From: Candidatus Mcinerneyibacteriota bacterium
GTDB taxonomy: Bacteria > AUK180 > JAQVHJ01
DNA: 9,168 nt
NCBI GenBank assembly: GCA_030630935.1
Contig: DAOVMD010000094.1
Coordinates: 1-9,168 of the forward strand
Reading direction: 5' to 3'
This document shows, one piece after another, positions 3 to 9,168 of the stretch. Under the pieces are notes generated by a model that saw only the letters and a program-made list of their open reading frames with translations, made no database searches and was not told where the DNA came from. Numbering within the stretch: the stretch's first letter is position 1; every line of letters starts with the position of its first letter. The translations under genes were made by a program, and so were the position numbers.

Positions 3-650
3 CCTTTAAAATCTATTTATGAAAAATATAAACAGGAAAAAGAAGTTAAAAATTTAAAAGAGAATTACAATTTTGATGAGAAAGATAAGTGGGATCTTTA
101 TTATGATGCAATGGACTATTTAAACAATGATCTTACGGAACCGGCAAAGATACTGCTCAATAAAGCATTGAAGATTGATAAGAACTTTGTTGGTGCGGAG
201 ATAGGATTTATTGAGGCCTATCAAATGGAAGGCAATTTAAAGGAACGGGTCAAACACATCGAGCTTGCATATAAGAAAACTTTAAAACACTTTCCCGTAT
301 TCCCCGAAATATTAGAATGGGGTGAGATAGAGAATAGACAATATTTTAGAGCAATCTATAATAAAGCCATTTATGCCCAGGAAATAAACAACCTCAAGGA
401 AGCAGAGAAATTTTATAAGTTAATTTTTAAATTTGATCCGGATGATCATATGGGAATCAGATACTACCTTGCTGGAATGTTTGCCGGAATAATGCCTAAT
501 GGAATTGATGACCTGTTTGAAAAAGGTAATCAGCTGCAAGATTGGTCAGAAGTCGAAAATCTGTTCATAAAACAAAATAAAAAACATAAATTCTATACAT
601 TTCCGGAATATGAAGATGATGAAGAAGAAGAATATTGGAGTGAAGAATGA
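3..650 (+). CDS. TPR-repeat protein, 5'-truncated by the window edge
   Basis: The frame is open from the first complete codon at position 3, so 215 residues are visible and the true start lies upstream. The first in-window ATG (111) has no ribosome binding site and falls inside a helical repeat, so it is not taken as the start. At least three TPR-like helix pairs can be seen: around codons 32-65, codons 66-105 (aromatic and Ala positions, then HIELAYKK), and a third with NLKEAEKFYKLIFKFDP, the clearest TPR consensus. The C-terminus is acidic (EYEDDEEEEYWSEE). TPR proteins are usually protein-binding scaffolds, and no enzymatic motif is seen. Its stop overlaps the cas8b start by 4 bases (ATGA, 647-650), so the two genes are probably co-transcribed and translationally coupled. 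Whether it takes part in CRISPR function is unknown. It could equally be an unrelated upstream gene that happens to share the transcript. Confidence 0.8.
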   Translation, partial: PLKSIYEKYKQEKEVKNLKENYNFDEKDKWDLYYDAMDYLNNDLTEPAKILLNKALKIDKNFVGAEIGFIEAYQMEGNLKERVKHIELAYKKTLKHFPVFPEILEWGEIENRQYFRAIYNKAIYAQEINNLKEAEKFYKLIFKFDPDDHMGIRYYLAGMFAGIMPNGIDDLFEKGNQLQDWSEVENLFIKQNKKHKFYTFPEYEDDEEEEYWSEE

Positions 651-2626
651 TCGAAGCAATGCGAAAATTGGCAATGGATTACCTCTTTAACAAATTGGGT
701 GATGAAAAAAATCCAACTCAAAATCTTGAAGAGTGGTACCTTAATCTACGTATTAATAATCCCGAACGACTTTTTCCATTCTTGGTAGAGAGCATAGAAA
801 ATATTGAAAAGATTTATATTCTTGAGAAGGATATTGAAAAAGATACTCTACTTTTGGTTCCTGAAGATATGACTAAAGAGAAAGCAGCATGGCTACCGTT
901 TATAAAACCAACAGGTGGAAGAAGCCCACAAATAGGTCCGATTATAAAAGTATCTAAAGACAGTCCTAAAATCTTAACCCTTGAAAATACTATTAAATCT
1001 TGGAAAGAGATTGCAGGTTCTAATAAACTCTGGTCTTCTTATTTTCAAGAAATTGTAGATTTATTAAATTATCCACAAGTTAAACTGCCTGATAATTATA
1101 TAATCAAAGGTTACAAAAATCTACTTGTTGCTGTAGTTGAAAATCTTAGGGATATAAAACAAAATTTACTTCTTATTGTTAGAAATAAAAACAATGAATT
1201 ACCAGGACAATGTCTAGAATATTGTAATTACTTAATGAAGGAAAAGCTTGCAGGGGCAAAATATATTACAAAAAATGCACCCAAAAAAGACAACCAAACC
1301 TGTCCATTATGTGGTATATCAGGTGTCACTGTTTTCCCAAATGCCTTGAAAGGAGCCGGAATAAATATAAGTAATGTTGATAGAGCTGGGACTTTTCCCG
1401 GTATAGATACTACACAAGCGTGGAAAGGTTATGCACTTTGTAATGCTTGTGCAGATTTGTTATATATATACAAATTTCACTTTCTTAAAAAAGATTCAAA
1501 AAAAAGAAATTCCTTTATTGTCTCTATTGCAGGGGAGAATGCTATTGTAATTCCATTTACCACTATAGATTATAAATCACGACAATCTATCTGGAGAAAT
1601 ATAAAGGATTTTACCAAAAGTACTTCTTCTGATGTTGAAGAAGCTGAACTAAGCCTTCTTGATATACTTAAGGATGAAAAAGGAATATTAAACCTTACTT
1701 TTCTGTGGGCAACGGTTGGTCAGGAAATAAGTGATGTTACTGGAATGATAACCAATATTCCACCCAGTAGGTTAACGGAGATTTCAAAAAACAATGAAGA
1801 TTCTCGTCAATGGAAACATCCTCTTTTTCCTAAAACATTCTTGCGAATCAAAGAAAGTAACTTCACACCAGATTTATCCCTCAAGGCATTGCGAGTATTA
1901 TTTTATCGCCCAGGTGGTAAAAAAGCAAAGGGAGTTAATGCAAGTATGAAATTACAGCAATTAAGAAAGAACATTGCTGTTGCTGTGTATCACAAAATAA
2001 AAATTCCTGAATCCAGATTTTGGGAGGAGGTTATGATTACTGCCCGTTGGTATTGGTTGGATGCAATTGAGAAGGGTAGTGCTTACATGATTCTTAATGA
2101 AGGCAAGAAGAAAGCAGGTGGCTTTTATCTAACAGCAGCAGGATGGATAAGACATATGTGTTATTGGATTTATTATTTTAAAAAATTGGAGGTGATGAAG
2201 ATGGAAGATAATTTTTTCGAACCACAGATGGAGAGTTTGAAACCTTTTTTTGGACAGGAAAGTGGAATTAACTCTATTGAGAAAGCTTATGCATTTTTAC
2301 TTGGCGCGCTTTATGGAAAAGTACTTCAAGTTCAAGGGGCAAAAGGTGTCAACGTTGGTGCTAACGCCCTTACTTGGCTAAAAAGATTAACATTGAAAGG
2401 AAAAGATCTCCCTGAATTATATAACAAAATTAGAGAAAAACTCTTAGCTTACGATACAGAAAAAAGTGAAGATGTAAGAACACTTATTGTTGAGATTGGC
2501 AGACTTGGTGTCAAATTAGGTGACAATTTTAAGCTAAATGAAACCCCAACTAATTATTATTTATTATTAGGTCAATCGTTAACTACGACAATTTTACCAC
2601 AAAAGAATATAAAAAAAATCAAATAG
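647..2626 (+). CDS. cas8b: Type I-B Cascade large subunit Cas8b (Csh1/TM1802-like)
   Basis: This 659-residue protein is the large subunit of the I-B surveillance complex, which recognises the PAM and helps recruit Cas3. It is assigned from its place directly before cas7-cas5-cas3, its length (usual for Csh1/TM1802-type Cas8b), and a four-cysteine zinc-binding motif: CPLC at residues 219-222 and CNAC at 265-268, separated by a Gly-rich linker. Cas8 sequences diverge strongly, so the exact subfamily is less certain than the role. The ATG at 647 is chosen because GGAG at 637-640 lies 6 nt upstream and the codon overlaps the stop of the preceding gene (ATGA). Residues 519-659 form a helical C-terminal region that can also be made separately as Cas11 (see the feature at 2201). 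The stop at 2624-2626 overlaps the AGGAGG that serves cas7, so translation of the two is likely coupled. Confidence 0.93.
   Translation: MIEAMRKLAMDYLFNKLGDEKNPTQNLEEWYLNLRINNPERLFPFLVESIENIEKIYILEKDIEKDTLLLVPEDMTKEKAAWLPFIKPTGGRSPQIGPIIKVSKDSPKILTLENTIKSWKEIAGSNKLWSSYFQEIVDLLNYPQVKLPDNYIIKGYKNLLVAVVENLRDIKQNLLLIVRNKNNELPGQCLEYCNYLMKEKLAGAKYITKNAPKKDNQTCPLCGISGVTVFPNALKGAGINISNVDRAGTFPGIDTTQAWKGYALCNACADLLYIYKFHFLKKDSKKRNSFIVSIAGENAIVIPFTTIDYKSRQSIWRNIKDFTKSTSSDVEEAELSLLDILKDEKGILNLTFLWATVGQEISDVTGMITNIPPSRLTEISKNNEDSRQWKHPLFPKTFLRIKESNFTPDLSLKALRVLFYRPGGKKAKGVNASMKLQQLRKNIAVAVYHKIKIPESRFWEEVMITARWYWLDAIEKGSAYMILNEGKKKAGGFYLTAAGWIRHMCYWIYYFKKLEVMKMEDNFFEPQMESLKPFFGQESGINSIEKAYAFLLGALYGKVLQVQGAKGVNVGANALTWLKRLTLKGKDLPELYNKIREKLLAYDTEKSEDVRTLIVEIGRLGVKLGDNFKLNETPTNYYLLLGQSLTTTILPQKNIKKIK
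2022..2030 (+). promoter_or_regulatory. Purine-rich SD-like site inside cas8b, upstream of in-frame ATG 2033
   Basis: GGGAGGAGG lies before an in-frame ATG at 2033 (Met463 of Cas8b). The GGAGG at 2023-2027 is 5 nt from that ATG, and the second GGAGG (2026-2030) only 2 nt. Initiation here would give a 197-residue C-terminal product. The spacing is poorer than at the site at 2188, and the Gly/Glu codons may produce the purine run by chance. It is an alternative small-subunit start at best. Confidence 0.3.
2188..2192 (+). promoter_or_regulatory. Internal ribosome binding site for Cas11 within cas8b
   Basis: GGAGGTGAT begins at 2188 and matches the anti-Shine-Dalgarno complement AGGAGGTGAT at 9 of 10 bases. 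The GGAGG core is 8 nt from an in-frame ATG at 2201. A site this strong inside a coding region, at the boundary of the helical C-terminal domain, suggests deliberate internal initiation. Confidence 0.72.
2201..2626 (+). CDS. cas11b: Small subunit Cas11b from an internal start in cas8b
   Basis: This is a predicted 141-residue product read in the same frame as cas8b (Met519 to the common stop). In types I-B, I-C and I-D the small Cascade subunit is known to be translated from an internal start within the large-subunit gene. It lines the belly of the complex and stabilises the R-loop. Here the start is marked by GGAGGTGAT at 2188-2196 with an 8-nt gap between GGAGG and ATG. An ATG at 2195 overlaps that SD element and is less suitable. 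The product looks helical, with amphipathic stretches at residues 25-45, 54-62, 71-85 and 90-105, and it has a basic C-terminus (KNIKKIK). Size and composition suit Cas11. No separate cas11 gene exists in the window, as expected for I-B. The assignment rests on the start signal and the known precedent, not on a sequence motif. Confidence 0.68.
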   Translation: MEDNFFEPQMESLKPFFGQESGINSIEKAYAFLLGALYGKVLQVQGAKGVNVGANALTWLKRLTLKGKDLPELYNKIREKLLAYDTEKSEDVRTLIVEIGRLGVKLGDNFKLNETPTNYYLLLGQSLTTTILPQKNIKKIK

Positions 2627-2637
2627 GAGGAAAGAAA

Positions 2638-3600
2638 ATGAGTAAACAATCACTATTAAACAGGCATGAGTTTTTATTCCTTTATGACATAAAGATGGGT
2701 AATCCAAATGGCGATCCTGATGAAAATCGACCTCGAGTCCTTCCGGATGGAACCCATTATGTAACAGATGTTAGGCTGAAACGATTTGTTCGGGACTTTT
2801 TAAAAATACGCGGGGAAGATATTTTGGTTGATAACATTGAAGGCAAAACAACAAACCTTACTGGAAGAGTTGTAGATTATTTAAAAAAACATGACCAAAA
2901 AGAAGCAAATGGTGAAGAATTGGTAGATATCCTTCTGGATGCCTTTATTGATGCGCGCCTATTTGGTAGCTCCTTTGCCTTTAAGTCAGAAGAGATAAAG
3001 GGAGAAACAAGTAGAAAAGAAAAATGGCATCCAATACCGAAGACTATGACAGGTGCTGTCCAACTTAATATGGGAGAAATTCTTCATAAATCAGAAGAAG
3101 TTGATATTCATGGAACATCTATTTTTGCTAGTGGTCAAGACAAAACTCAAGGAACATTCACTACCTATTTTGGGCTTCGTTATGCCCTTATTGGTTTTTC
3201 TGGTGTAGCTAATGAACACTCAGCAAAAATCTCAAAGATGTCAGAAAAAGACTTTGAATATTTTCTTAAATCAATGTGGCATGGAGTAAGAGTGTGTGGG
3301 AATACCCGAACCAAGGTAGGTCAGATTCCGCATCTTTTGATTGACATTGAATATAAACAAGGTGAAGAATTCCAGCTTGGACGACTTCATGACTATGTAA
3401 AGATGGAGCCAACAAAGGGTAAAGATGAAAAGGTATGGGCGTCACCTGAAGATTATAAATTGAATCTTTCTATACTAATTAAACGATTGAAAGAGAAAAA
3501 AATAAAAATAGAAAATGTTCATTATTCTAAATCATCTGATATTCAATTTACAGAAAATTTACCTCAAGACTGGCTAACTTTTGATGTCGAAAATCTGTAG
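2638..3600 (+). CDS. cas7: Type I-B Cascade backbone subunit Cas7 (Csh2)
   Basis: This 320-residue protein is the RRM-fold subunit that polymerises along the crRNA spacer to form the Cascade backbone. The N-terminus carries the hallmark of the Csh2/Cas7 family: a first beta strand (EFLFLYDIK, residues 11-19), then NPNGDPDENRPR at 22-33 and a DVRLKRFVRDFL helix. A family-typical segment, PIPKTMTGAVQLNMGEILH, lies in the middle, followed by GTFTTYFGLRYALIGFSG. Length is normal for Csh2. The ATG at 2638 has a full AGGAGG at 2625-2630 with a 7-nt spacer, the strongest ordinary start signal in the operon. That fits the need for several Cas7 copies per complex. The gap from cas8b is only 11 nt, and cas5 follows after 45 nt. 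Confidence 0.96.
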   Translation: MSKQSLLNRHEFLFLYDIKMGNPNGDPDENRPRVLPDGTHYVTDVRLKRFVRDFLKIRGEDILVDNIEGKTTNLTGRVVDYLKKHDQKEANGEELVDILLDAFIDARLFGSSFAFKSEEIKGETSRKEKWHPIPKTMTGAVQLNMGEILHKSEEVDIHGTSIFASGQDKTQGTFTTYFGLRYALIGFSGVANEHSAKISKMSEKDFEYFLKSMWHGVRVCGNTRTKVGQIPHLLIDIEYKQGEEFQLGRLHDYVKMEPTKGKDEKVWASPEDYKLNLSILIKRLKEKKIKIENVHYSKSSDIQFTENLPQDWLTFDVENL

Positions 3601-3639: not shown

Positions 3640-3645
3640 TTGTCA

Positions 3646-4371
3646 ATGGAATTGATAAATTTTCGATTAAGTGGTCGCTTTGCTCATTTTTTAAGGGCTG
3701 AAGCATCAGCAAGTGCTTTAAGCTATCCAGTTCCACCAAGAACCGTAATACAGGGTATTCTGGGCGCTATTCTCGGTTTATCTAAAGATGAACCTCAAGT
3801 TGCTCTTGAACCGGCTTATATTGCAATCTCTGGAAAACTGCCAAAGACTCACTGGCATAGAGCAAAACTCCGCAAGAAACCACCTGCATCATTATCCTAT
3901 AACATAAAGCAAACACAAAAGTCAGATAAGCCTACAAAACCAGAACAGGCAACATTGATACTTCAGGAATGGTTATTTGAACCAAGTTACACTTTATGGG
4001 TTTCAATTCCCCAACCGTATAATGCCGATTTAAAAACAAGATTACGAGAAAAGAAGTGGCATTTTAATCCATCTCTTGGACTTTCCGAAATGATGGCTGA
4101 TATTGAATATCTTAACTCAAATAAGTGCAAAAAACTTCCAAAAGGTATTTACGATATTAATTCTATGTTTCAACGGAAAGAAGGAGACATTGATATGAAT
4201 CTGGTATTTGAAAGAGGGTTAGCAATCCACCTCCTTCAAATGCCACGGACTGTAACTCCTGATAGAATTTTTTCTCATTGCAAATATGTAACAGAACGTG
4301 ATACAAAACCAATTCCAGTAAAAACTGACCAAGCATATAAAGTTGATAACAAAGTAATAATGTTTTTATGA
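3646..4371 (+). CDS. cas5b: Type I-B Cascade subunit Cas5 (Cas5h-like)
   Basis: This 241-residue RAMP-family subunit binds the 5' handle of the crRNA and joins Cas8b to the Cas7 filament. The N-terminus has the Cas5 signature: GRFAHFLRAEASAS, then LSYPVPPRTVIQGILGAILGL, which is the glycine-rich first helix after the SYP-PPRT turn. The C-terminal half ends with a short beta-rich tail (IPVKTDQAYKVDNKVIMFL). Length is normal for Cas5h. The ATG at 3646 is used because AAGGAG is 6 nt upstream, although a TTG two codons earlier is also open. The stop overlaps the cas3 start by ATGA (4368-4371). In I-B systems Cas6 normally processes the crRNA, so Cas5 is expected to be structural and not catalytic. 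Confidence 0.95.
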   Translation: MELINFRLSGRFAHFLRAEASASALSYPVPPRTVIQGILGAILGLSKDEPQVALEPAYIAISGKLPKTHWHRAKLRKKPPASLSYNIKQTQKSDKPTKPEQATLILQEWLFEPSYTLWVSIPQPYNADLKTRLREKKWHFNPSLGLSEMMADIEYLNSNKCKKLPKGIYDINSMFQRKEGDIDMNLVFERGLAIHLLQMPRTVTPDRIFSHCKYVTERDTKPIPVKTDQAYKVDNKVIMFL

Positions 4372-6674
4372 CAAACTTAAAATCTCATCCGAACATACAA
4401 CTATCTGAGCATATTGCTCAGGTTATGGCAGCTGCAGATTGGTTATGTAAATGGCACTCAAATGAGATAATAACACCTGAAATCAAAAGGCTCATTAAGA
4501 GAATAATCCTTTTACATGACACAGGTAAAGCAACAGAAGCATTTCAAAAATATATTAATAACCCATCTGAATATACTGATGACCCAATGAGCAAGGCACA
4601 TACCCCAATGTCTACACTTATTTCATTCTTGTTATTAAAAGAGGGAAAGTTGGATATATTGAATAAAATGATTATATTTGCAGTTATTTCTGGTCATCAT
4701 AAAGGATTACCTTCAATAGAAAGGTTACGAGAGATTGGTAGTGGAACTATTGCTAAAATATTGAAGCGTCAAAATGGAACATTACTAGTTGATCTATTAA
4801 GTTCTCAATGTAATATTAATATTTCAAATTTGGACTTTAGTAATCGTCCATGGGCGAAGATGCAACAGTATCTTGATAATATAGTTTTTCCTACTTTTGA
4901 GAATTTAACAATTGAGCAAGCTGTTAAGTTTAGACTAAAAACCCAATTACTTTTTTCTCTTTTGCTTGAGGCAGATAAAGCATTTCTTGCTGTAAAAGAA
5001 GTTCAAAAATATTTACAAAGAGAGTCAAAAGTCTGGAAACCTGAATGGGTTAAGCAAAAAATTGGTTTACAAAAGGCAACAATAGTTAATAAAATCCGAC
5101 AGTCTATAAGGATTAATATCGAAAGTAAAATTAATGAAATTAAAACACCTGGGATTTTTAGTTTAACATCTCCCACAGGAAGTGGTAAAACCTTACTGTC
5201 CGCAACATGGCTTTTAAAAATACGCGAGAAGATGAGTAAAAAGGGAGTATGCCCAACAGCTATAATTGTGCTTCCTTTTCTATCAGTGATTGATCAGACA
5301 ACAAAAGAGTATGAAACATTATTGACTACCATTGGTGGTGAGAAATCTAATGGCTCTTGGTTTTTAACTAGTCATTCTTTAGCAGACAGAAAATATAAGA
5401 GAGGGTTAGAAGATGATATCGAACACTTTTTTATCGATACATGGCGAACTGAATTGATTATAACTACTTATGATCAGTTTTTAATGACCTTAATGGATGT
5501 AAGAACAAGATATCAGATGCGGTTTCATAATCTATGTGATGCTTTGATTGTAATGGATGAGGTACAGTCACTTCCATGTAAACTATGGAAACCATTAGAG
5601 GAGATATTGAAATGTCTTGTAAAAGTTGGGAATACTAGTATTTTATTAATGTCGGCGACACTTCCTGCAATTATTTCAGAAGCTAAGCCACTCTTAGAAG
5701 ATTACAATGATTATTTTGAAAAATTTAATCGATATAAATTGCAGTTTAGGGTCGACAAAAAACTTGAAATAAGTGAATTCTGTGATGAAGTATTAAGACG
5801 AAGAAAAAAGTGGTTACAGGAAAACAAACGAGTATTGATTACACTAAACACTCGAAAAAGTGCTAGGCTTGTGCGTGATAAACTGGCTGAAGATTGGCCT
5901 GATAAATTTTTAAAAACACCTTTACTTTTTATCAGCGCTGATGTAACTCCACAAGATAGGTTAGAAAAAATAGAAATTATAAAAAAAGATGAACCATGTA
6001 TTGTTATATCAACTCAATGTATAGAAGCAGGTGTTGATATTGATATGGATTTTGTAATTCGCGACTTTGCTCCATTTGACAGTATTGTTCAAATTGCAGG
6101 TCGTTGTAATCGCAAAGGGAAGATATTGCATTCAGCAATTTTAGAAATTGTAGATTTAGTAAATAAAAAGGGTAGTAGATACTCAGAGATGATTTACGAT
6201 GATGTTCACTTACAGATTACACATCAGCTAATAGAGAAAAGTACAATAGAAGAAAAAGATATTTTACCAATAGCAACACAGTATTTCAAGTTTTTATCAT
6301 CAAGAAAGGATACGGGGTTAAAACATCTTGAAAGATTTGCACGATGGCAGGAAGACATAAGTGTACGAGAACTACTTCGAGGTAAAGAACGAGAAAAATA
6401 TACCTTTCTTGTAATCGAAAAAGATCCTTTATTAAAAGATGAAATGGCAAATGCAAATGAAGTTGAAGATCGTTGGAAACGGAGGGAAGCATGGCGAAAT
6501 CTTGCAGGAAGAATTGCAAAAATTTCAGTTAGTATATTTGCAAAATACGGATTTAATCCTCAGGATATTGCATATGAATATTTAGGACATTGGATTTTGT
6601 ACGATGGTTTTTATTCTACTGATAGAGGATTGGTTTTGTCAACTGATTCTGAAGCAGGTATATTTATAGATTAA
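4368..6674 (+). CDS. cas3: CRISPR-associated HD nuclease-helicase Cas3
   Basis: Cas3 is recruited by target-bound Cascade, nicks the displaced strand and then degrades DNA while translocating 3' to 5' with ATP. The 768-residue protein is complete. The HD domain comes first, with candidate metal ligands His15, the His50-Asp51 pair in LLHDTGKAT, His78, and His110-His111 in SGHHKG. The superfamily 2 helicase follows: Walker A PTGSGKT at 269-275 (Lys274), motif II DEVQ at 397-400, motif III SAT at 429-431, motif V around 548-557 (STQCIEAGVD), and motif VI QIAGRCNRKG at 575-584 with Arg579 and Arg582. A C-terminal domain of about 170 residues ends in AGIFID. There is no Shine-Dalgarno site before the ATG, so initiation probably depends on coupling through the ATGA overlap with cas5. 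This would keep Cas3 levels below those of Cascade. All key residues are present, so the enzyme should be active. Confidence 0.97.
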   Translation: MTNLKSHPNIQLSEHIAQVMAAADWLCKWHSNEIITPEIKRLIKRIILLHDTGKATEAFQKYINNPSEYTDDPMSKAHTPMSTLISFLLLKEGKLDILNKMIIFAVISGHHKGLPSIERLREIGSGTIAKILKRQNGTLLVDLLSSQCNINISNLDFSNRPWAKMQQYLDNIVFPTFENLTIEQAVKFRLKTQLLFSLLLEADKAFLAVKEVQKYLQRESKVWKPEWVKQKIGLQKATIVNKIRQSIRINIESKINEIKTPGIFSLTSPTGSGKTLLSATWLLKIREKMSKKGVCPTAIIVLPFLSVIDQTTKEYETLLTTIGGEKSNGSWFLTSHSLADRKYKRGLEDDIEHFFIDTWRTELIITTYDQFLMTLMDVRTRYQMRFHNLCDALIVMDEVQSLPCKLWKPLEEILKCLVKVGNTSILLMSATLPAIISEAKPLLEDYNDYFEKFNRYKLQFRVDKKLEISEFCDEVLRRRKKWLQENKRVLITLNTRKSARLVRDKLAEDWPDKFLKTPLLFISADVTPQDRLEKIEIIKKDEPCIVISTQCIEAGVDIDMDFVIRDFAPFDSIVQIAGRCNRKGKILHSAILEIVDLVNKKGSRYSEMIYDDVHLQITHQLIEKSTIEEKDILPIATQYFKFLSSRKDTGLKHLERFARWQEDISVRELLRGKEREKYTFLVIEKDPLLKDEMANANEVEDRWKRREAWRNLAGRIAKISVSIFAKYGFNPQDIAYEYLGHWILYDGFYSTDRGLVLSTDSEAGIFID

Positions 6675-6721
6675 AATTAATTAAATGGTTTAAAATCTGT
6701 TATGTTATTACCTTTTATTAA

Positions 6722-6766
6722 ATTATGACAATAACCCTTAAAATTTAAATTGGAAAAATATGGTAA
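6722..6766 (+). repeat. 45-bp direct repeat (cas4 leader), copy 1
   Basis: These 45 bases are identical to 8061-8105. They comprise 38 nt upstream of the cas4-fragment ATG (6760) plus its first 7 nt. The element contains a 10-bp palindrome, AATTTAAATT (6742-6751), and a weak GGA before the ATG. Similarity continues downstream at only about 69 percent through the cas4 fragment and does not extend visibly upstream of 6722. The two copies bracket a 1,339-bp unit. Confidence 0.95.
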
Positions 6767-6918
6767 AAATTTATGCAACGCTTATTTGGTTGTATTATAT
6801 TTGTCATCATAAGATGTGGTTGATTTCCAGAAAAAATAGATCATATCGAGATAATGATATTTTGCATATTTGCAGAATGATAAGTGAGGTTTCTTATGAC
6901 GAAGAAGAAAAAAGGTAG
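6760..6918 (+). pseudogene. cas4: cas4 remnant (N-terminal 52 codons)
   Basis: An ATG at 6760 opens 52 codons that stop at TAG 6916-6918. The peptide aligns without gaps to the first 51 residues of the intact Cas4 at 8099: 28 of 51 residues are identical by my hand count, including the start MV-IYATLIW, the YYIC motif with Cys15, the DND turn and the MI-E--SY segment. Over the same stretch DNA identity is about 69 percent (47 mismatches in 153). The rest of Cas4 is absent: the RecB-type catalytic motifs and the three C-terminal iron-sulfur cysteines. It therefore cannot be a nuclease. The preceding leader is identical to that of intact cas4. The last 23 nt overlap the start of the next gene, whose ribosome binding site lies inside the fragment. 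The low identity means this is not a recent copy of the neighbouring cas4. It may come from a different cas4 lineage. It could still be translated as a small leader peptide. Confidence 0.82.
6886..6889 (+). promoter_or_regulatory. Ribosome binding site choosing ATG 6896
   Basis: GAGG lies 6 nt before ATG 6896. An in-frame GTG at 6884 overlaps this site and has no Shine-Dalgarno sequence of its own, so the ATG is preferred. The site lies within the cas4 remnant, so translation of the remnant could expose or couple it. Confidence 0.65.
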
Positions 6919-8056
6919 AAGGAAGAAGCAGAGATTTCCAAAGCAGAAAAAGTACTATAGCATTACATCTTTTGAGTACTGGGAAAATAGATTTGATGAA
7001 ACGAAGAGTTCTGATGAAAAGATAGAAACTATTCGTGAATTAATGAATTACAATGAACTTGATGATAATTCACTCTATTTAGATTTTTTAGGTAGAACAG
7101 TTGATAATTGCGGGATTGAAGGAAAGCATGATAATGCAATATCATTAATTTGGGATTTTAAAGAAAAGAAAGGAGAGCTATTTAAAAAGATATCTGTATA
7201 TCTTTATGAATACTTAATTTATCTGAATTTCATTAAAGGTAACCTTGATGAAATAAAAAGAATAATAAAGATTGCAAAAAATAATATTGTTAAGGTTCCT
7301 AAACTTATATTTCAAATATTATCCTTTTTTGAAATATATTCACATTATGATATTACATTATTCTTTATAGAACAAATATATATTGCTTTTATGAAAGATT
7401 CAAATATTATGAAATATGAAAAAGATGAACTAGAGCATATTATATTATTTAATAGTATTTTTTCTTTCCTGATTAATAATGAAAATTATTCAGGGGAGCA
7501 ACTGCATCAATTCTATAAACACATGAGACAATATACAAAACTGAAAAAGGGTGAATTTGTAAAAACGGTAAGAGTAATAGAAGGAAAAGAAAATATTAAC
7601 TGGGGAACAGGACAATTTAATATTGAACAACCGTATTATCAAGATAATTTACATTGGTTATTTGTGGAGTTTATTGCTTATGCAAAATTACGGAATATTG
7701 ATTATGGCTTTACTAATAATTTACAAAAAGAGGTTATTAACTTTATGGATTTTCAATTAAAATATTGTGAAGATATTGAGAATGCTTTATATGTTTCTGT
7801 AGATTATCTTGAAGAATATCTTGTTTTAAAACTTAATCCTTTATTTGGAGATTGTCATACAGGTGCCGTTCTTGCAATTGGTTTTCCTATTTATATTGAT
7901 TTCTTAGAGAGTAAAAACCTTTTAGTATTTGATAAGACACAACTAATGAATAAATTACCCGAATTAAAAAGGAGTATTATTAATCTCATTAGAGATAATT
8001 ATTGGAAGTACAAAGTTCTTAATGACTTGTTAGATGAGAATATTAATAATACTTGA
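6896..8056 (+). CDS. Uncharacterised helical protein with basic N-terminus, inserted between cas3 and cas4
   Basis: I do not recognise this 386-residue protein with confidence. Residues 3-19 are extremely basic (12 of 17 are Lys or Arg), a likely nucleic-acid or ribosome-contacting tail. An aromatic segment follows (YYSITSFEYWENRF, residues 20-33). The remainder reads as a chain of amphipathic helices, for example around residues 40-52, 78-90, 97-112, 116-130, 134-147, 152-166 and 177-193, which suggests a TPR-like or other alpha-solenoid fold. Residues 213-250 are less helical, with GKENINWGTGQFNIEQPYY resembling a loop or small beta element. A final helical part ends at 386. There is no signal peptide, transmembrane segment or nuclease motif. 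ATG 6896 is chosen for GAGG 6 nt upstream; the GTG at 6884 is the alternative. The gene is flanked by two identical 45-bp leaders and begins inside a cas4 remnant, so it looks like an insertion into the cas operon. It is more AT-rich than the cas genes. Confidence 0.85.
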   Translation: MTKKKKGRRKKQRFPKQKKYYSITSFEYWENRFDETKSSDEKIETIRELMNYNELDDNSLYLDFLGRTVDNCGIEGKHDNAISLIWDFKEKKGELFKKISVYLYEYLIYLNFIKGNLDEIKRIIKIAKNNIVKVPKLIFQILSFFEIYSHYDITLFFIEQIYIAFMKDSNIMKYEKDELEHIILFNSIFSFLINNENYSGEQLHQFYKHMRQYTKLKKGEFVKTVRVIEGKENINWGTGQFNIEQPYYQDNLHWLFVEFIAYAKLRNIDYGFTNNLQKEVINFMDFQLKYCEDIENALYVSVDYLEEYLVLKLNPLFGDCHTGAVLAIGFPIYIDFLESKNLLVFDKTQLMNKLPELKRSIINLIRDNYWKYKVLNDLLDENINNT

Positions 8057-8060
8057 TAAT

Positions 8061-8105
8061 ATTATGACAATAACCCTTAAAATTTAAATTGGAAAAATAT
8101 GGTAA
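8061..8105 (+). repeat. 45-bp direct repeat (cas4 leader), copy 2
   Basis: This is an exact copy of 6722-6766, beginning 4 nt after the stop of the helical gene and running into codon 3 of intact cas4. It carries the same palindrome (AATTTAAATT, 8081-8090). An ATGACA at 8064-8069 is a 5-of-6 match to a -35 box, but the best -10 candidate at a sensible distance is poor, so a promoter is not claimed. Confidence 0.95.
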
Positions 8106-8593
8106 ATATTTACGCAACACTAATTTGGTATTATTATATATGTCCTCGGGAGGTTTGGTTGATGGCTCGGAATATCAATTCTTTCCAGGATAATGATCTC
8201 CTAAAGATTGGCATCATGATTAATGAGGATTCTTATAAGCGTGATAAAAAAGAGGTTCAAATTGATAATCTGAAGATTGATGTGATTAGGTCAAGAGGAA
8301 ATCATTTGGTTATCGGGGAGATTAAGAAGTCTTCAAGATTTATGAAAGCATCAGAGATGCAGCTGCTCTTTTATCTTTATAAACTAAAGAAGAAAGGAGT
8401 AGAAGCATCGGGAGAACTTCTGTTTCCAAAAGAGAAGAAGAAGGTTAAAGTAGAATTAAGTCAGGAGAATACTGCTGAACTTGAAGATGCGATTGAAGAT
8501 GTTAAAAGAATTATTCAGCTAGATAGGATACCTGAGCTTAAGAAGAATAAATATTGTAAAAAATGTGCATACAAAGAATTTTGCTGGAGCTAG
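8099..8593 (+). CDS. cas4: Cas4, RecB-like nuclease of CRISPR adaptation
   Basis: This 164-residue Cas4 trims prespacers and helps choose PAM-adjacent DNA for integration with Cas1-Cas2. The four cysteines of the 4Fe-4S cluster are all present: Cys15 in YYICPREVWL, and Cys153, Cys156 and Cys162 in the C-terminal CKKCAYKEFC. The PD-(D/E)XK nuclease residues Asp61 (LKIDVI), Glu74 and Lys76 (GEIKKSSRF), and Gln88 with Tyr92 (MQLLFYLY) are in place. One departure stands out: where I-B type Cas4 proteins usually read LIHE-SYKR, with a metal-binding His, this one has MINEDSYKR, so Asn42 replaces His. The start has only a weak GGA upstream and lies inside the conserved 45-bp leader. Length is normal for the family. 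The next gene is separated by a repeat array of about 570 nt, unlike the tight spacing elsewhere in the operon. Confidence 0.93.
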   Translation: MVNIYATLIWYYYICPREVWLMARNINSFQDNDLLKIGIMINEDSYKRDKKEVQIDNLKIDVIRSRGNHLVIGEIKKSSRFMKASEMQLLFYLYKLKKKGVEASGELLFPKEKKKVKVELSQENTAELEDAIEDVKRIIQLDRIPELKKNKYCKKCAYKEFCWS

Positions 8594-8600
8594 TGCGAAT

Positions 8601-8729
8601 TAAAAAAGAAGGTCCGAAGAGGATGCGAATAAGACGAATGAAAAGAATGCGAATGATAAGAATGCTAATAAAAAAAGAAGGTCCGAATAGTGTGCGAATA
8701 AGACGAATAAGAAGAATGCGAATGAGAAG
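8601..8729 (+). repeat. Tandem 69-bp sub-repeat in the TGCGAAT array
   Basis: Positions 8601-8660 and 8670-8729 align over 60 nt with about 7 mismatches and a period of 69 nt. Both copies contain the otherwise unique word AAGAAGGTCCGAA (8607-8619 and 8676-8688). This indicates growth by tandem duplication of multi-unit blocks and not of single units. Confidence 0.8.
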
Positions 8730-8732
8730 TGC

Positions 8733-8772
8733 GAATAAGACGAATGAAAGATTGCGAATGAGAAGTGCGAAT
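8733..8772 (+). repeat. 40-bp exact repeat within the array, copy A
   Basis: The block is identical to 8870-8909, 137 nt downstream, close to twice the 69-nt period. It holds GAATAAGACGAATGAAAG followed by two TGCGAAT units separated by GAGAAG. Confidence 0.9.
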
Positions 8773-8869
8773 AAGACAAAAAAAAGAGGTGTGCGAATAA
8801 TAAAAGTGGTGCGAATGACACGTATAAAAAAGGAATGCGAATGAAAATGCGAATATCAAAAGAGTGTGT

Positions 8870-8909
8870 GAATAAGACGAATGAAAGATTGCGAATGAGA
8901 AGTGCGAAT
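8870..8909 (+). repeat. 40-bp exact repeat within the array, copy B
   Basis: This is an exact copy of 8733-8772. Surrounding units differ, so the block has been kept or copied as a unit. Confidence 0.9.
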
Positions 8910-9044
8910 GCAAATATATAAGAATGGTGAGAATAAGACGAATGAGAAGTGCGAATTAAAAACGAGGGTGCGAATAGTGAAAGTGCGAATAAGATGAATG
9001 AAAGAGTGCGAATGAAAAAAAGGTGTGAATTTATTTTTATTTAT

Positions 9045-9147
9045 ATTCGCAATCTATTCGCACATATATTCGAGCCATTCGCATATCTGTTTTTTCTTTT
9101 CATTCTTTCTATTGTTTTTATTCGCATATTTTTTTTATCTATTCGTA
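9045..9147 (-). repeat. Inverted arm of the array (ATTCGCA units)
   Basis: After about 9030 the + strand switches from purine-rich to pyrimidine-rich and the repeated word appears as its complement. ATTCGCA occurs at 9045, 9056, 9077 and 9120, with variants ATTCGAG (9068) and ATTCGTA (9141). The two arms could pair in RNA or cruciform DNA. The nearest good pairing is GTGCGAAT 9006-9013 with ATTCGCAC 9056-9063. Confidence 0.8.
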
Positions 9148-9155
9148 TAAAAATT

Positions 9156-9160
9156 GGAGG
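9156..9160 (+). promoter_or_regulatory. Ribosome binding site for a gene starting at or past the window end
   Basis: GGAGG is followed by a 7-nt spacer and then an A at 9168, the last base. If the next two bases are TG, this is a well-spaced start. A TTG at 9164 is only 3 nt away and unlikely. By the usual I-B gene order the gene would be cas1, but nothing in the window shows its sequence. Confidence 0.5.
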
Positions 9161-9168
9161 TACTTGAA

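Follow-up and report, generated by a model that had tools for sequence, protein, structure and literature searches.

Between cas3 and cas4 of a type I-B CRISPR-cas locus of a "Candidatus Mcinerneyibacteriota" bacterium, two old paralogous cas4 starts lie 1339 bp apart, the upstream one being a stump in which some 46 cas4 codons run into the beginning of an uncharacterized gene, ORF386. The tract that precedes both starts is identical in every base. On balance, we regard this region as a recombination scar at the boundary of the effector genes with cas4, with the tract representing a recent recombination footprint and not a conserved control switch. The window, i.e., the whole stretch of DNA that was analyzed (9,168 bp), is a complete contig (C354) of a metagenome-assembled genome (MAG) of 3.16 Mb that comprises 471 contigs and is 80% complete. 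Its features, in the order of their starts, are as follows.

3..650, + strand: 3' half of a TPR-repeat gene, 88% identical at the nucleotide level to positions 11250-11880 of contig C396, where the paralogue adjoins the ORF386 paralogue
647..2626, + strand: cas8b, TM1802-type large subunit (PF09484, E = 2e-37; PADLOC Cas8b, E = 1e-37)
2638..3600, + strand: cas7/csh2 (TIGR02590, 194 bits; cut-off, 171)
3640..4371, + strand: cas5b (TIGR02592, 96.0 bits; cut-off, 97)
4368..6674, + strand: cas3 helicase-nuclease, the last gene of the effector module (TIGR01587, 140 bits; cut-off, 102)
6699..6728, + strand: 3'-terminal remnant of a gene for a DUF4143/AAA ATPase (VMLLPFIKL*), identical in 23 of 26 bases to the end of the C396 ATPase gene (VILLPFIKFEI*)
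6722..6767, + strand: identical tract, copy 1, covering the last codon and stop of the ATPase, the ATPase-cas4 spacer, and the first codons of cas4; exact match to 8061-8106
6760..6918, + strand: cas4 5' stump N1, 52 codons followed by TAG (6916-6918) (Pfam Cas_Cas4, PF01930, E = 1.3e-4 over residues 7-46)
6896..8056, + strand: ORF386, uncharacterized, predicted to be all-helical, with a paralogue on C396 (85% amino acid and 92% nucleotide identity) that also lies behind a 52-codon cas4 stump
8061..8106, + strand: identical tract, copy 2, beginning 5 bases past the ORF386 stop
8099..8593, + strand: intact cas4, 164 amino acids, four conserved cysteines (PF01930, E = 6.5e-58; PADLOC Cas4b, E = 3e-58)

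The gene order is thus TPR fragment, cas8b, cas7, cas5, cas3, the region of interest, and intact cas4, followed by degenerate GCGAAT repeats. The presence of Cas8b, Cas7, Cas5, and Cas3 in this order identifies the locus as type I-B: Cas7 and Cas3 score above the NCBIfam cut-offs, Cas5b reaches 96 of the required 97 bits, and Cas8b is supported by Pfam and PADLOC with a score below its NCBIfam cut-off. The contig ends 575 bp past cas4 and carries no Cas1, Cas2, Cas6, or CRISPR array; no Cas1 was found elsewhere in the 80%-complete MAG either. The DNA directly 3' of cas4 (8594-9168) consists of about 570 bp of degenerate GCGAAT/GACGAAT repeats. A short version of the GCGAAT repeats is also found 3' of cas4 in G002, a relative from the same class (L005, positions 1992-2070), where the gene behind it resembles the GxxExxY family.

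The two cas4 starts differ in what they can encode. PF01930 covers residues 7-164 of the intact Cas4, and its cysteines 15, 153, 156, and 162 are invariant in the alignment, which is what a predicted Cas4 nuclease would be expected to show. Stump N1, which ends at residue 52, before the PD-(D/E)XK core, and includes only the first of the conserved cysteine positions, falls short of a Cas4 nuclease. Across codons 1-51, the two share 28 of 51 residues and differ at 11, 11, and 25 of the 51 first, second, and third codon positions, respectively. For codons 4-46, dS is 1.76, dN is 0.25, and dN/dS is 0.14, with synonymous sites near saturation. This dN/dS value, together with the third-position bias, indicates that, through most of the time since they separated, both lineages evolved under Cas4 constraint. 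The original prediction of two cas4 starts with diverged coding parts therefore stands, except that the upstream one is a 52-codon stump.

Against this background of divergence, the two copies of the tract are identical in all 46 bases (the original prediction had identical leaders of 45 bp), a stretch that extends through the ATG of each cas4 frame and 5 bases beyond it. Past the tract, the identity falls to 77% and about 60%, and it amounts to 75% over the whole region of homology (6714-6912 versus 8053-8251). At the neutral identity of 0.5 to 0.6 that is implied by dS, the chance of finding 37 identical noncoding bases is about 1e-9 to 1e-11; even if one takes the 0.145 synonymous difference between the ORF386 paralogues, 46 matches out of 46 would be expected with p = 7e-4. 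With 0 changes, the 95% upper bound for the divergence of the tract is 6%. Because this absence of changes contrasts with the near-saturated synonymous flanks, the pair of tracts is younger than everything around it. An old simple duplication would not be expected to produce such a pair, as had been argued from the outset: dS is about 1.8 beside the tract and 0 within it. The same figures support the suggestion that the leader was either recently homogenized or served as a shared site of recombination between two cas4 lineages.

The nature of the tract becomes clear from a second locus in the same genome. Contig C396 carries a cas4 stump (N2), ORF385, a TPR gene, a full DUF4143 ATPase gene, and a decayed third cas4 start (N3), which is located directly behind the ATPase gene and, when the DNA is compared pair by pair, comes closest to the intact cas4. 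In the window, the tract begins with ATTATGA, in which TTA TGA represents the last codon and the stop of the VMLLPFIKL* frame; a match to the C396 ATPase tail as good as the observed one (23 of 26 bases) was not reached in any of 2000 shuffles. Since the full ATPase gene on C396 directly precedes a decayed cas4 start, the "leader" consists of the 3' terminus of an ATPase gene together with the ATPase-cas4 spacer. The identical tract is real, yet it is not a free-standing leader, as it contains the last codon and the stop of the ATPase tail (6723-6728). A DUF4143 ATPase gene directly 5' of cas4 is also found in G174, G027, and the named-genome loci L078, L084, L087, and L137. More generally, DUF4143/AAA_14 ATPases (PADLOC candidate PDC-S01) are encoded within about 100 bp upstream of cas4 in L078, L084, L087, L137, L067, and L070, and directly 3' of it in L093 and L100; they flank cas4 in many unrelated bacteria, as if the borders of cas4 were an insertion hotspot.

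The idea that strong selection keeps the tract identical because it acts as a promoter, a translation leader, or a regulatory site common to the two cas4-type starts derives some appeal from the position of the tract, which ends at the start codon, from the still open frame of the stump, and from the fact that both genes behind the tract may need expression. However, the tract is not conserved as a module: a search of the whole MAG, 59 relatives, and viral contigs detected no further copy beyond the two in the window, so that the tract was also rejected as a mobile or repeated site. It is not kept before the paralogous starts N2 and N3 on C396, nor before cas4 of the class relative G002. The coding strand within the tract has no promoter-like site, the region as a whole has 17 promoter-like matches versus 12.5 in shuffled sequences (standard deviation, 3.3), which is no clear excess, and the tract has no Rfam match that would indicate a conserved RNA element. 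In addition, the tract contains the stop codon of the ATPase remnant, and promoter constraint is usually far looser than identity at 46 of 46 positions. We consider selection on the leader, whether as a regulatory or as a recombination site, to be an unlikely explanation.

On C396, the 52-codon stump N2 (sequence search, E = 3.6e-4) overlaps the start of ORF385 in the same way as N1 overlaps that of ORF386. ORF385 (385 amino acids) is the sole ORF386 paralogue in the genome (92% nucleotide and 85% amino acid identity), and the 46-bp tract is absent around it. In a FastTree tree (built from about 46 stump residues), 75% of bootstraps place the genome's four cas4 starts in a single clade, which means that an outside donor is not needed; N1 groups with N2 in 45% of bootstraps and with the intact cas4 in 5%. 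The proposal that a different cas4 lineage had been brought in thus holds insofar as there are two diverged lineages, but these look like native, old paralogues and not like a distant import. Weak matches to the cas4 start elsewhere in the genome (contigs C62, C319, and C30) lack a coherent frame and were dismissed as chance similarities. The dS values of the neighboring pairs differ widely, from 0.16 for ORF386/ORF385 and 0.41 for the TPR genes to 2.1 for N1/N2. With adjacent segments of such unequal age, the locus is a mosaic, and the two loci have exchanged segments at different times. The C396 island (L016; G000:C396, 9000-14100) lacks cas effector genes and is a probable relic of a second I-B locus. 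The 730 bp between the TPR and ATPase genes contain no clear remains of cas8 through cas3, so the relic reading relies on the TPR gene and the ATPase-cas4 flanks; about 10 bases past the TPR stop match the start of cas8.

ORF386 (386 amino acids) starts with an ATG inside the stump frame, resulting in a 23-base overlap that includes the stump stop. It matches no Pfam family at the curated cut-off and no NCBIfam or PADLOC family, and no relatives were detected in the named genome collection. Its AlphaFold model is helical and of low confidence (mean pLDDT, 47), too poor for a fold search. A Lys/Arg-rich N terminus weakly similar to that of ORF386 is encoded in G006 (L065, G006:C171, 2-406); this match was rejected as a relative, since it adjoins unrelated genes and not a cas4 stump, the neighbors being a gene that resembles ORF-3 of plasmid pRiA4b and one for a possible SWIM-type protein. 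In both loci, a purine-rich motif (GAGG or GAAG) is found a few bases 5' of the ATG of the ORF385/ORF386 genes, as it is in the intact cas4 codons for NEDSY; in ORF386, it is GAGG, 6 bases upstream of the ATG and within the cas4 codons of the stump. Judging from the sequence, ORF386 is probably translated from a ribosome-binding site within these codons, an arrangement that would account for the stump frame staying open. N2 has drifted, with no third-position bias relative to N1, and its frame is nevertheless open, an outcome that drift gave in about 0.7% of simulations (p of about 0.007), which hints that the stump is translated.

Matches to the cas4 start were detected in 43 of 386 genomes, and a stump upstream of an intact cas4 was found in two unrelated ones (G311 and G174). 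In G311, a stump of 63 bp (89% identity) directly follows the effector genes and precedes genes for DUF4258 and DUF2283, which form a toxin-antitoxin-like pair by arrangement, and then cas4-cas1-cas2 and the array. In G174, a stump of 89 bp (80% identity) lies between a PIN/antitoxin pair and an ATPase-cas4 pair. The DNA of G174 is 73 to 75% identical to that of its relative G027 from just before the ATPase gene through cas4 and again over cas1-cas2, whereas the cas3 genes of the two are only about 28% identical. The stump of G174 lies at the border of this shared DNA, which begins just past it. This pair thus shows, with a visible scar, the pattern expected of in situ effector replacement, in which relatives have their adaptation genes in common but differ in unrelated effector genes, the break lying at cas4. 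No stump was found in 80 additional named cas4 loci, which were selected by their similarity to the Cas4 of the window and some of which are truncated by contig ends; such stumps are thus uncommon. In the comparison that revealed the stumps of G311 and G174, 28 loci were viewed with 1.5 kb of DNA on each side. In L144, from a Calditrichota MAG, a repeat of up to 88% identity begins where cas4 ends on its 3' side and occurs again about 1.1 kb farther downstream (8452-8728 and 9592-9855).

These comparisons also bear on the remaining explanations. Direct repeats flank the insert in the window, and those in G311 and G174 measure 63 to 89 bp at 80 to 89% identity, which is the pattern that a long target-site duplication would leave, a single event having duplicated the 5' end of cas4 with subsequent decay of the left copy. 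However, the copies produced by a single duplication would diverge evenly, which is at odds with a stump-cas4 dS of 1.76 and dN/dS of 0.14 next to an unchanged tract. As an account of the whole region, this is improbable; for the 46-bp tract alone, a target-site duplication is possible. Even less credence can be given to the tract being an att-like site for site-specific recombination of a mobile cassette carrying ORF386. The repeats do flank the insert exactly, and passenger genes recur beside cas4 in other genomes, but the site is confined to its two copies and missing from the ORF385 paralogue, no recombinase gene is found among the open reading frames of the window, and the repeated part in G311 and G174 is cas4 coding sequence that is different in each; an att site would be seen at several insertions along with an encoded recombinase. 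Finally, a false joining of two real loci through the 46-bp repeat, conceivable for a 9168-bp MAG contig of a 471-contig assembly known from assembled sequence alone, is similarly doubtful, because the joint between the stump and the ORF385/ORF386 genes is independently present on C396, any arrangement needs both copies of the tract, and common assemblers finish with k-mers longer than 46 bp.

In the history that we favor, homologous recombination, through either unequal crossover or templated insertion, would have placed a copy of the unit consisting of the stump and the ORF386-type gene ahead of the intact cas4. The homology used would have been the cas4 start and its spacer, the latter being duplicated in the process. 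The right edge of the tract would then mark the place, at codon 3, where one cas4 lineage gives way to the other, and the left edge would be where the tract was joined to the 3' end of ORF386; the two spacers would have remained undiverged because the event was recent. Exactly the present order would result if the resident cas4 had undergone unequal crossover with a stump located, as on C396, 5' of the TPR gene and a deletion had followed. A templated insertion would leave an identical picture, and crossover, conversion, and templated insertion would all fit. The DNA upstream of the TPR gene lies off the contig, so the predicted source copy would be out of view.

Short direct repeats are known to be homogenized by homologous recombination, and the window resembles such cases, as it contains an identical tract that has diverged flanks and edges coinciding with the limits of homology; it differs from them in that the tract is only 46 bp long, near the lower limit for RecA-type recombination. 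Passenger and toxin-antitoxin genes occur inside CRISPR-cas loci, and the PIN/antitoxin pairs, the DUF4258/DUF2283 pair, and the DUF4143 ATPases between effector genes and cas4 are of this kind, although some of those described here are delimited by an incomplete copy of cas4. Passages of earlier surveys describe how CRISPR effector modules are replaced in situ next to adaptation genes (PMC5704561, Phylogenomics of Cas4 family nucleases, 2017; PMC6452270, Origins and evolution of CRISPR-Cas systems, 2019); the second of these surveys uses the term 'attractor' genes for cas6 and for cas1, cas2, cas4, and RT in combinations. As in such replacements, recombination occurs at the effector/cas4 joint and the adaptation side stays, which is directly supported for G174 versus G027; in contrast to them, the insert in the window amounts to a single small gene, accompanied by a 46-bp spacer that was recently duplicated. 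We read the region as a scar of this known CRISPR module shuffling next to cas4. Truncated cas4 starts left at the joint are not mentioned in those passages of the two surveys or in the open-access literature searched.

The stumps at effector/adaptation joints in two unrelated genomes suggest that swaps of modules or passenger genes repeatedly use the cas4 start as their joint. A broader, tentative generalization would be that effector modules and small passengers bring along the first 20 to 50 codons of the cas4 of their donor and recombine next to the resident copy, so that stumps record successive swaps and some passengers use the stump as a translation leader. The overlap between the stump and ORF386 may also represent a passenger gene capturing the expression signals of a cas gene. 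Effector swaps beside a fixed adaptation module are known, yet their joints are seldom seen. A cas4 stump with a still-identical spacer provides such a joint at base resolution as well as a countable mark, and stumps would make it possible to address the frequency of these swaps, their donors, and the homology that they use.
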